The translations under genes were made by a program, and so were the position numbers. The notes under the pieces were generated by a model that saw only the letters and a program-made list of their open reading frames with translations, searched no databases and had not been told where the DNA came from. Shown piece after piece: positions 39,960 through 41,386 of a stretch of 64,000 bases of DNA; the first letter of the stretch is position 1, and the number at the start of each line of letters is the position of its first letter. Origin of the DNA: Prevotella sp. GTDB lineage: Bacteria > Bacteroidota > Bacteroidia > Bacteroidales > Bacteroidaceae. The stretch is taken from positions 35,116 through 99,115 of the forward strand of contig JAFTFO010000035.1 of assembly GCA_017449495.1 (NCBI GenBank), in the 5' to 3' direction.

Positions 39960-40240
39960 TGCCCTCGCCGCTGCATAGCCTGCAGACTGCATGAGAGCAG
40001 CCTGCGGACTGCAAAAGAACAGCCTTGTGTCTATCTAAGAGTAGCCTTGTGTCTACCTATCCGACTAAAGTCAGCCAGGTGGCTGACTTTAGTCGTTCAC
40101 CTGTCTGACTATAGTCAGCCGACTGTCCGACTATAGTCAGACACATAGCTTCCTGCCTGATTCAAGGTAGAGAGCAGCCATCTTCGAGGTAGAGACGAGC
40201 CTATATCGTGATAAAGAGCAAGTTGTAAAACAATCGCAGA
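39955..40240. repeat. Degenerate 22-bp-period tandem array B, non-coding
   Basis: Units fall at 39977, 39999, 40021, 40043, 40065, 40087, 40109, 40131, 40153, 40175 and 40197, exactly 22 bp apart. Neighbours share halves: 39977 and 39999 both start AGCCTGC; 40021 and 40043 both start AGCCTTGTGTCTA; 40065, 40087 and 40109 start CT(A/T)(A/T)AGTC and end in (T/C)(C/T)GA; 40109 and 40131 start CTATAGTCAG; 40153 and 40175 end GGTAGAGA. A 15-bp inverted repeat (40062-40076/40081-40095) and palindromes CTGACTATAGTCAG (40105-40118) and GACTATAGTC (40129-40138) arise where units meet. No gene is present in the 39960-40284 gap. Confidence 0.75.
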
Positions 40241-40284
40241 TTCTGCTCAAACCACACGACGAAGCAAAATAATACCCGAAAAAC

Positions 40285-40315
40285 TTGCAGATTTCAGGAA
40301 AAAAGCGTATCTTTG
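40285..40315 (+). promoter_or_regulatory. corA promoter
   Basis: TTG (40285-40287)-N20-TATCTTTG (40308-40315), a strong -33/-7 match. Transcription would start near 40322, giving a leader of about 138 nt to the corA ATG at 40460. Confidence 0.82.
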
Positions 40316-40346
40316 CAGCCGAAATAACCAAAATATTTACAAACAA

Positions 40347-40382
40347 ATGGACGATTACCCGGCGGATTATTACGAACAGTAA
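40347..40382 (+). CDS. corA leader peptide MDDYPADYYEQ
   Basis: An 11-codon frame in the corA leader, ATG 40347 to TAA at 40380-40382. The peptide is MDDYPADYYEQ: four acidic residues, a proline at position 5 and three tyrosines. It lies 32 nt after the -7 box and is preceded by A-rich AAACAA, as is usual for starts in this phylum. Acidic and proline-rich nascent N-termini destabilise ribosomes at low Mg2+, and such peptides control Mg2+ transporters in Salmonella (mgtL before mgtA, corL before corA). Here it sits before corA, and codons 6-8 overlap the first arm of a possible anti-sequestering hairpin. Confidence 0.7.
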   Translation: MDDYPADYYEQ

Positions 40383-40456
40383 TGGCGGGGGATGGCGAGC
40401 AAGGCTGCTAATCCCTTTGCCGCTAAAACCATTTCACGAACGAAAAAAGGATTAGC
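40364..40456 (+). promoter_or_regulatory. Attenuator-like leader with two mutually exclusive hairpins
   Basis: Segment 1 is GGATTA (40364-40369) inside the leader peptide gene. Segment 2 is GCTAATCC (40407-40414). Segment 3 is GGATTAGC (40449-40456), which follows AAAAAA and ends 3 bp before the corA ATG (40460). Segments 2 and 3 form an 8-bp stem, extended by TTT/AAA after one mismatch, that would hide the corA ribosome-binding region. Segment 1 pairs with TAATCC of segment 2 (6 bp, plus GGC/GCC across a 4-nt bulge) and would free it. The pairings were read by eye, not folded. Confidence 0.65.
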
Positions 40457-40459
40457 AAA

Positions 40460-41386
40460 ATGAAGACTTTCTGGAACACCCAAGGCGGACTGACCCAGCT
40501 CCAAGAGTGGCAGCCCAATTGCTGGATACAGGTGACTTGCCCCACCGAAGACGACCAGCACGAACTCGAAGAGAAGTTCAACATCCCCGACTACTTCATG
40601 TCGGACATCAGCGATACCGACGAGCGTGCCCGTTATGAGTACGACGACGGCTGGATGCTGATCATCCTGCGTATCCCTTACGTCAAGGAGATACGTTCGC
40701 GGACACCTTATACCACCGTGCCTCTGGGTATCATCCACAAGCGCGACGTGACGATCACCGTGTGTTACTACGAGACGAACATGATGATCGACTTCGTGTC
40801 GTTCCAGCAGAAGCGGGGGACGGGCTTCACCGATCATGTCGACATGATCTTCCGTCTGTTCCTCTCATCTGCCGTCTGGTACCTGAAGCGCCTGAAGCAG
40901 ATATCGATGCTCATCGACAAGGCCAAGCGTAACCTGGACCGCGAGGTGAACAACGAGAGCCTGATCGGCCTCAGTCGCCTGCAGGATTCGCTTACTTACT
41001 TCCAGACTTCCATCCGTGGCAACGAGAACTTGTTGCAGAAACTGAAGTTCAAACTCCAGATCGACGAACTGGACGCAGACCTGATCGAGGACGTGAACAT
41101 CGAGATGTCGCAGGCTCGGGAGACCACTTCCATCTACTCCGACATTCTGGAGTCGACGATGGACACCTATTCTTCTATTATTAATAATAATATGAATACG
41201 GTGATGCGTACGCTGACCTCGGTGACGATTATCATGATGTTCCCCACGCTGATAGCCTCATTGTTCGGTATGAACCTTATCAACGGTATGGAGGAAAAAT
41301 CGTGGGGATTTGTCTTTGCACTGTGCATTTCGGTGGTCGTATCGGTCATCTGCTGGTGGATTTTCCGCCATAAACGGCTTGTTTAG
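40460..41386 (+). CDS. corA: CorA-family magnesium/divalent cation transporter
   Basis: 308 residues. The large N-terminal cytoplasmic part ends in long helices (DADLIEDVNIEMSQARETTSIYSDILESTMDTYSSIINNNMNTVMRTLTSVTII). Two C-terminal transmembrane segments follow (TIIMMFPTLIASLFGM and WGFVFALCISVVVSVICWWIF). The pore signature GMN is present in LFGMNLINGMEEKSW (about 268-282), defining the CorA family. It forms a pentameric Mg2+ channel in the inner membrane. The 138-nt leader upstream contains a small acidic peptide gene and pairable segments, so expression is probably controlled after transcription begins. Confidence 0.93.
   Translation: MKTFWNTQGGLTQLQEWQPNCWIQVTCPTEDDQHELEEKFNIPDYFMSDISDTDERARYEYDDGWMLIILRIPYVKEIRSRTPYTTVPLGIIHKRDVTITVCYYETNMMIDFVSFQQKRGTGFTDHVDMIFRLFLSSAVWYLKRLKQISMLIDKAKRNLDREVNNESLIGLSRLQDSLTYFQTSIRGNENLLQKLKFKLQIDELDADLIEDVNIEMSQARETTSIYSDILESTMDTYSSIINNNMNTVMRTLTSVTIIMMFPTLIASLFGMNLINGMEEKSWGFVFALCISVVVSVICWWIFRHKRLV

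Follow-up and report, generated by a model that had tools for sequence, protein, structure and literature searches.

The corA gene of the Prevotella sp. DNA analysed here (the window, a stretch of 64,000 nucleotides) is preceded by a short upstream open reading frame (uORF) with an acidic N-terminus and by three RNA segments able to form two competing pairings, one of which takes in the translation start region of corA. The arrangement probably functions as a translational attenuator in which the ribosome itself is the sensor: completion of the leader peptide would close corA and early loss of the ribosome, at low Mg2+, would open it. The parts of the locus, all on the forward strand, are as follows.

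40285..40315, + strand: putative Bacteroidota-type promoter, with TTG at 40285-40287 and the -7 element TATCTTTG at 40308-40315.
40347..40382, + strand: leader uORF MDDYPADYYEQ (11 codons, read from the sequence) and its stop codon.
40384..40393, + strand: segment 1 as revised here, GGCGGGGGAT, the 5' hairpin arm after the uORF stop, located by the minimum-energy fold and the swap test.
40407..40414, + strand: segment 2, GCTAATCC, the partner of segment 3, and part of the 3' half of the 1:2 hairpin (40404-40421).
40411..40421, + strand: 3' arm of the 1:2 hairpin, ATCCCTTTGCC, from folds of the window.
40422..40448, + strand: spacer from the hairpin to segment 3, variable among relatives.
40449..40456, + strand: segment 3, GGATTAGC, part of the corA translation start region, three bases upstream of the corA ATG (40460).
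40460..41386, + strand: corA, 308 aa, a CorA-family divalent cation transporter with a GMN motif (Pfam CorA, 1.5e-50).

The GMN motif, present in the translation of the window corA, is taken here to be the signature of the CorA family; with the NCBIfam corA equivalog the product scores 98.3 bits, which is under the cut-off of 200.75 bits. In 97 of 115 divergent leaders the 75 nt upstream of the uORF contain the motif TANNTTTG, presumably the Bacteroidota -7 consensus, versus 6.4 leaders expected from shuffled sequences; the motif ends a median of 29 nt from the uORF ATG. With a promoter element at this distance, no other frame is likely to precede the uORF on the mRNA, the start of which would be situated about 25-30 nt 5' of the uORF. 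Since a simple consensus scan of positions 40250-40520 revealed no terminator-like site, control is more likely exerted at translation. The interval between an HU-like gene and the corA promoter contains imperfect repeats of the GACTATAGTCAG type (40040-40150).

The uORF of the window consists of the codons ATG GAC GAT TAC CCG GCG GAT TAT TAC GAA CAG TAA, which encode the peptide given in the preliminary description, and relatives have retained the frame. Its occurrence was determined upstream of corA by a rule that demanded ATGGANGAN, a length of 5-20 codons and an end at least 25 nt upstream of corA. The genus was represented by 30 loci, the window included, and 40 placed loci from 130 genomes; a further 80 loci, the best of at least 572 confirmed contig matches, were counted with the genus, the name of which is attached to only part of them. 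The family contributed 30 and 46 loci of 96 genomes (nine of the first 30 belong to the genus and one is the window), other families of the order 32 loci, all among the stronger matches, and the phylum 26 loci with an E value of 1e-40 or better. A second, weak CorA family of about 20-30% identity was left out, except for one member included by chance (L309). Removal of 23 duplicate sequences and 4 regions that were too short left 260 distinct regions, from which representatives were chosen at an 80% identity cut without tree weighting.

A uORF in which Met is followed by two acidic residues was present in 223 of the 260 regions; shuffled sequences yielded 2.65 on average and at most 7 in 20 rounds. 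This excess argues against a complete lack of regulation, in which the uORF and the hairpins would be by-products of start-region preferences and low-complexity upstream DNA, a reading to which we assign almost no weight. The uORF was found in 216 of 234 regions within the order (genus 132/136, other genera of the family 57/66, other families 27/32) and in 7 of 26 outside it, such that 18 corA genes of the order lack a uORF by the rule. When short uORFs were collected without presupposing acidic residues, DD followed Met in 217 of the 260 regions, the next most frequent pair being AG with 21. Several of the 37 negatives were near misses, namely L030 with MIDDYPA, L158, and L242 and L314, both with longer frames (that of L314 judged by eye); for L128 and L145, inspection by eye suggests that the sequence upstream of corA is the end of another gene. 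L158 (G111) has kept the uORF, the stop of which is 1 nt before corA, and has no hairpin, due either to a natural deletion or to an assembly error; in L308, which is from another genome, the leader is complete.

Beyond its start, the peptide is specific for each clade, as exemplified by MDDYPA.., MDDYHAEN.., MDDYYAE.., MDDSNPRTYS.., MDDYHPE.. (8-10 codons), MDEGPYH.. and MDDYYSEMLN. Acidic residues 2 and 3 in all 129 representatives are a consequence of the search rule. Lys and Arg are almost missing from residues 1-6 (2 of the 129), and proline is found at residues 4-7 in 68, hence not generally. The uORFs end with TAA (63), TAG (46) or TGA (20), are 8-19 codons long within the 5-20 allowed by the rule, and their stop is mostly about 46 to over 200 nt from the corA ATG. 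A stop codon was located 0-10 nt 5' of segment 1 in the coding frame of 79 of 116 leaders and in the other two frames of 10 and 16; for this test the entire leader was folded and whatever paired with the start-complementary stretch was taken as segment 1, a procedure that in about one-quarter of the leaders places it before the stop. With the search for segment 1 confined to the sequence past the stop, the counts were 113, 9 and 8 of 115, a construction that favours the coding frame. The stop tends to stand in register with segment 1 despite the varying length of the uORF.

A peculiarity of the frame is codon 6. Wherever it encodes Ala it is GCG (80 of 80 cases among 116 representatives; positions 40362-40364 of the window), a codon that accounts for 4% of the 194 Ala codons in seven window genes and for 5.9% of those in 58 corA genes, of which the first 850 nt were counted. 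CCG or TCG stands at this place in other leaders, and of all 129 leaders 103 have xCG as codon 6. The pairing tests described below do not account for this constraint; a slow step that promotes ribosome loss is one guess. The use of so rare a codon hints at a paced step and fits an alternative to which we give a minor though real chance, in which the same switch responds to a signal other than Mg2+, be it tRNA charging (His, Tyr, Pro or Ala codons), a slow rare codon, ribosome inhibitors, or how active a factor such as EF-P or an EttA-like ABC-F protein is, and in which early stalling rather than drop-off opens corA. EttA acts on early acidic residues, including those of MgtL, according to passages in PMC11282234. 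Arguing against such a signal is the variation of residues 5 and 6 between clades (P-A, H-A, Y-A, H-P, H-S, N-P) while the DD start is nearly constant, as well as the nature of the target genes, which belong to Mg2+ transporter families.

The pairings that would enable the ribosome to act as a switch were evaluated by comparing the pairing energy of the true partners with that of partners exchanged between 129 leaders less than 80% alike. The 1:2 pairing had a mean of -13.97 kcal/mol versus -9.67 kcal/mol after swapping; in 104 of 129 leaders the true partners were superior to the mean of their own swaps, and in 37 they were among the best 5%. The corresponding values for 2:3 were -12.63 versus -8.18 kcal/mol, 118 of 129 and 42. 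Control combinations remained at or near the level of the swaps: uORF with segment 1 was stronger than the mean swap in 72 of 129 leaders (11 in the best 5%, 6.5 expected), uORF with segment 3 in 56 (4 in the best 5%, 6.5 expected) and segment 1 with segment 3 in 58 (10 in the best 5%, 6.5 expected). In an earlier run with 116 leaders, 2:3 ranked within the best 5% of shuffles for 87. Judged from these comparisons, 1:2 and 2:3 both covary. For 104 of 116 representatives, the 3' arm of a local hairpin contains or overlaps the stretch complementary to the corA start, and it is there that 1:2 and 2:3 compete.

Segments 2 and 3, which the preliminary description had placed correctly, are conserved in the clade of the window: among 109 distinct MDDYPA leaders, 92 contain GCTAATCC and 91 GGATTAGC without change, and 89 contain both (105 of 125 when duplicates are included). 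One relative, L098, has compensatory changes, with GCUAUUCC in segment 2 and GGAAUAGC in segment 3. Between clades the letters are unrelated and the complementarity is kept, as in CGCUAUUCCUCC/GGAGGAAUAGC (L098), GGUUGUUUUCCUC/GAGGAAAACAGCC (L150), GUCUGAAUCUUU/AAGAUUCAGAC (L193), GUUCUGUUCUUUG/CAAAGAACAGAAC (L205) and GACUAAUCUUCA/UGGAGAUUAGUC (L155). GGAGG-like stretches before corA in many clades, perhaps serving ribosome binding, could pair with any CCUCC and would in that respect agree with an absence of regulation. Swapped partners, however, retain such generic pairing and yet are on average the weaker ones in 118 of 129 leaders, and segment 3 of Prevotella is GGATTAGC, with both sides altered in L098. 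The spacer between segments 2 and 3 has been enlarged, for example in L086, L018 and L105, by short repeats (CGTACCACGTACCT arrays and AATTATCAATTGTCAATT-like); such insertions extend the loop to more than 100 nt in some leaders and leave segments 2 and 3 untouched.

The outcome for segment 1 is different from what had been proposed. GGATTA, which was assigned this role, is indeed found at 40364-40369, but it is contained in the uORF of only 4 of the 109 distinct MDDYPA leaders (5 of 125 with duplicates), and pairing of the uORF with downstream RNA is near chance over the 129 leaders. Two mutually exclusive pairings that compete, one of them masking the corA start, survive from that proposal, with segment 1 now being the 5' arm after the stop; in the window, GGCGGGGGAT starts two bases past the stop. 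Codons 4-9 of the uORF, compared with any downstream stretch, were in the best 5% for 8 of 116 leaders against shuffles and for 4 of 116 against swaps, both near chance. A four-segment design resembling that of trp, in which the uORF pairs with segment 1, was prompted by L119 and L123 (UCACGC/GCGUGA) and was discarded in view of its near-chance result over all leaders. The idea that segment 3 repeats segment 1 letter by letter was likewise rejected, the longest shared words measuring 4.52 versus 4.23 after swapping.

Alternative hairpins upstream of a Mg2+ transporter, with a segment 2 that can sit in a compact hairpin, might also be expected of an RNA that binds Mg2+ directly, with the uORF as a mere accessory. 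Such a riboswitch is very improbable. Between clades segments 1-3 conserve their complementarity and not their letters, which is unlike an aptamer, the start and frame of the uORF are the most conserved feature, and a search with the 4227 models of Rfam 15 identified no family at gathering score in the leader of the window or in 11 relatives; below that score the window leader gave weak, unrelated matches only.

Segment 2 of the window is contained, by minimum-energy folding of the leader, in a hairpin that extends from 40384 to 40421. Folding of positions 40316-40470, suggested at the outset as a check together with conservation and covariation in relatives, gave a z score of -1.96, with 6 of 200 shuffles equally good; the other two checks had a strongly positive outcome. 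Blocking of the uORF and the following 10 nt converted the 1:2 hairpin of the window to 2:3, for which 6 nt were insufficient, and in the open fold GCTAA (40422-40426) offers segment 3 a further, weak pairing partner. The loss of accessibility that a ribosome at the stop is predicted to impose on the start region was in the top 5% of shuffles in only 27 of 116 leaders, and the window leader displayed no drop (delta -0.02, rank 0.65). Equilibrium folding, as modelled here, backs the switch only partly; two-state equilibrium folding was rejected as proof of the switch, and the 27 of 116 were counted as evidence against it. In many of 23 folded leaders, 2:3 belongs to the minimum-energy fold although no ribosome is present, and the open state would therefore need to be kinetic. 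From the lack of a clean switch at equilibrium we infer that the decision is made by the order of folding during transcription.

According to the scenario that we favour, a ribosome starts the synthesis of MDDYPADYYEQ while the leader is being transcribed. On reaching the stop codon its leading edge would mask segment 1 and block 1:2, segment 2, transcribed next, would pair with segment 3, and the corA start would be shut. The medians over the leaders put segment 1, the 5' arm, at about +5 to +14 relative to the stop; in the window it occupies +2 to +11. A ribosome with a stop codon in the A site covers roughly 9-11 nt past the stop, and much of segment 1 would therefore be unzipped. It had been proposed that the ribosome masks segment 1 while finishing the peptide; masking can be retained, but since segment 1 begins a few bases past the stop (median 5 nt), it would have to be imposed by the ribosome at the stop codon. 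If instead the ribosome drops off, or is held, at the acidic codons with which the uORF begins, segment 1 would be free, 1:2 would form first and consume segment 2, and corA would be translated. Loss or arrest at codons 3-6 would leave segment 1 uncovered, given a uORF of at least 8 codons. Low Mg2+ would increase ribosome loss at the acidic start and thereby raise corA expression.

Mg2+ as the signal, with low Mg2+ opening corA, is suggested by the target genes, by the acidic and acidic-proline starts and by precedents in Salmonella and E. coli. As stated in parts of PMC8092293, PMC11552253 and PMC11282234, nascent chains with early acidic or acidic-proline residues shed ribosomes in both organisms, where mgtA and mgtB are controlled by leaders of this type and corA by a related one. 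In E. coli the loss is greater at low Mg2+. By analogy, the ribosomes of the bacteria studied here would drop off at MDD.

An acidic-proline uORF and a similar switch are also found upstream of mgtE at three loci. In 500 shuffles each, the leader MKDDPYSCCLINH (L338) gave p values of 0.004 for 2:3 and 0.0 for 1:2, MEEDPYRSYSREKETMC (L328) 0.112 and 0.016, and MDEGPYHLCSNRTHL (L359; Pfam MgtE_N 1.6e-20) 0.026 and 0.138. As far as the pairings indicate, the evidence for an mgtE switch is strong for L338; 2:3 of L328 and 1:2 of L359 are not above shuffles. Since MgtE is an unrelated Mg2+ transporter family, a similar design before its gene lends independent support to Mg2+. A leader of this kind as a general rule for mgtE was rejected, as only 2 of 24 loci in a survey of 60 genomes had it, one of them (L338) recognized by eye; the script of this survey sought only ATGGA starts, 110 nt per locus were inspected by eye, and L359 came from a separate pattern search.

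The pattern ATGGAYGAYTAYYMBSCGGA matched eight times in 247 genomes of the order, once per genome, and six of the matches were upstream of corA. A similar pattern occurred in 91 of 120 genomes of the genus at 93 places, with second matches in G004 and G078; of 30 places that were fetched, 29 had corA just downstream and one ran off the contig end. The remaining two of the eight matches concern a CNNM/CBS/CorC_HlyC gene (L277) and an overlap with the start of ksgA (L274, L309). In L277:1501-1628 (G223) a frame of about 41 codons, as counted by eye, starts with MDDYHAE, has a TTTG-type promoter element just upstream and ends immediately before the CNNM/CBS/CorC_HlyC gene (Pfam), which may be a further Mg2+ gene governed by an acidic leader, although one of different layout. 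In L274:1501-1523 and L309 (G394) an MDDYHAE uORF overlaps the ksgA start, and the next gene encodes a second, distant CorA with the GMN motif. That the Bacteroidota possess a phylum-wide Mg2+ regulon, composed of corA, some mgtE and perhaps the CNNM/CorC-type gene and the ksgA-corA operon, in which uORF completion shuts the gene, has in our estimate a little less than an even chance.

The switch is common across the order and is seen in some members of other orders. Control by Mg2+ of this sort in Bacteroidota was not found described in the open-licence literature of PubMed Central (PMC), which does not contradict the earlier statement that none is known to have been described in the phylum; the main text of a transcriptome paper on B. 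thetaiotaomicron (PMC7366714) does not contain the word corA, and corA, magnesium and Bacteroid- are all absent from the uORF4u paper (PMC10219788). Those acidic leader peptides linked to Mg2+ that were found in this literature are from Proteobacteria. The kind of system is known from mgtL, corL and mgtQ; the phylum and the layout are new. If such a phylum-wide regulon exists, acidic uORFs that exploit the Mg2+ dependence of the ribosome would have arisen independently in Proteobacteria and Bacteroidota with different RNA logic, and the translating ribosome would be a general sensor of Mg2+. A covarying start-masking switch with an acidic uORF upstream of two unrelated transporter families would make ribosome loss on acidic nascent chains a widely used Mg2+ gauge. 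The more than 100 divergent uORFs constitute a natural panel for determining which nascent chains lose the ribosome. They exemplify regulatory reading frames of 8-19 codons, a size under that usually reported by gene callers.

In a trp-type attenuator, the position of the ribosome on the leader selects between competing hairpins. The corA leader resembles it in that the choice would be made by ribosome position and differs from it in having no terminator-like site in the region scanned. E. coli mgtL-mgtA shares with the leaders described here an acidic or acidic-proline start (EPDP in MgtL; MDEGP, MDDYP, MKDDP and MEEDP here), and in the relevant passages of PMC11282234 EPDP causes ribosome drop-off and ribosome loss raises the synthesis of the Mg2+ transporter, the direction proposed here for corA. 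In the same passages mgtL controls Rho-dependent transcription termination, whereas here the translation start would be masked. The corL uORF of E. coli and Salmonella, like ours, is located upstream of corA (excerpts of PMC11552253 and PMC6429828), and in E. coli its translation is inversely related to that of corA (PMC11552253, in part). According to that portion of PMC11552253 it is part of a three-way junction and involves Rho-dependent termination; in our case the corA start itself would be masked. The corA motif is reported in the part of PMC6429828 concerned with it only from Gammaproteobacteria and metagenomic DNA. A corL-like pairing of the uORF with downstream RNA was near chance, both for codons 1-9 with segments 1 and 3 and for codons 4-9 with the whole leader after the stop.

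The nearest known system is mgtQ-mgtB of Salmonella because mgtQ also masks a translation start, as far as described in sections of PMC8092293. There, Asp2 and Glu5 of the 8-residue uORF raise the translation of mgtB via a stem-loop that frees the mgtB start. Both systems combine early acidic residues with a Mg2+ transporter, assigned to CorA by Pfam in the window, and with alternative stem-loops that mask or free the start, which in the corA leaders are indicated by pairing and covariation and partially by equilibrium folding. Control is translational in mgtQ and probably also in the corA leaders, and in mgtQ, on the evidence of those sections, better translation of the uORF is accompanied by less transporter, as proposed here for corA. 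They differ in gene family and phylum, and the corA uORF resides in a 5' leader, that of mgtQ, as presented there, between genes. In that account mgtQ has four segments, the first of which is part of the uORF, a position seen in some Prevotella leaders (L119, L123) and not in general; the Bacteroidota leader has three general segments, of which segment 1 lies past the stop. This difference in location leads to opposite expectations: loss of the uORF start lowers mgtB, as reported in the same part of the source, and should raise corA.
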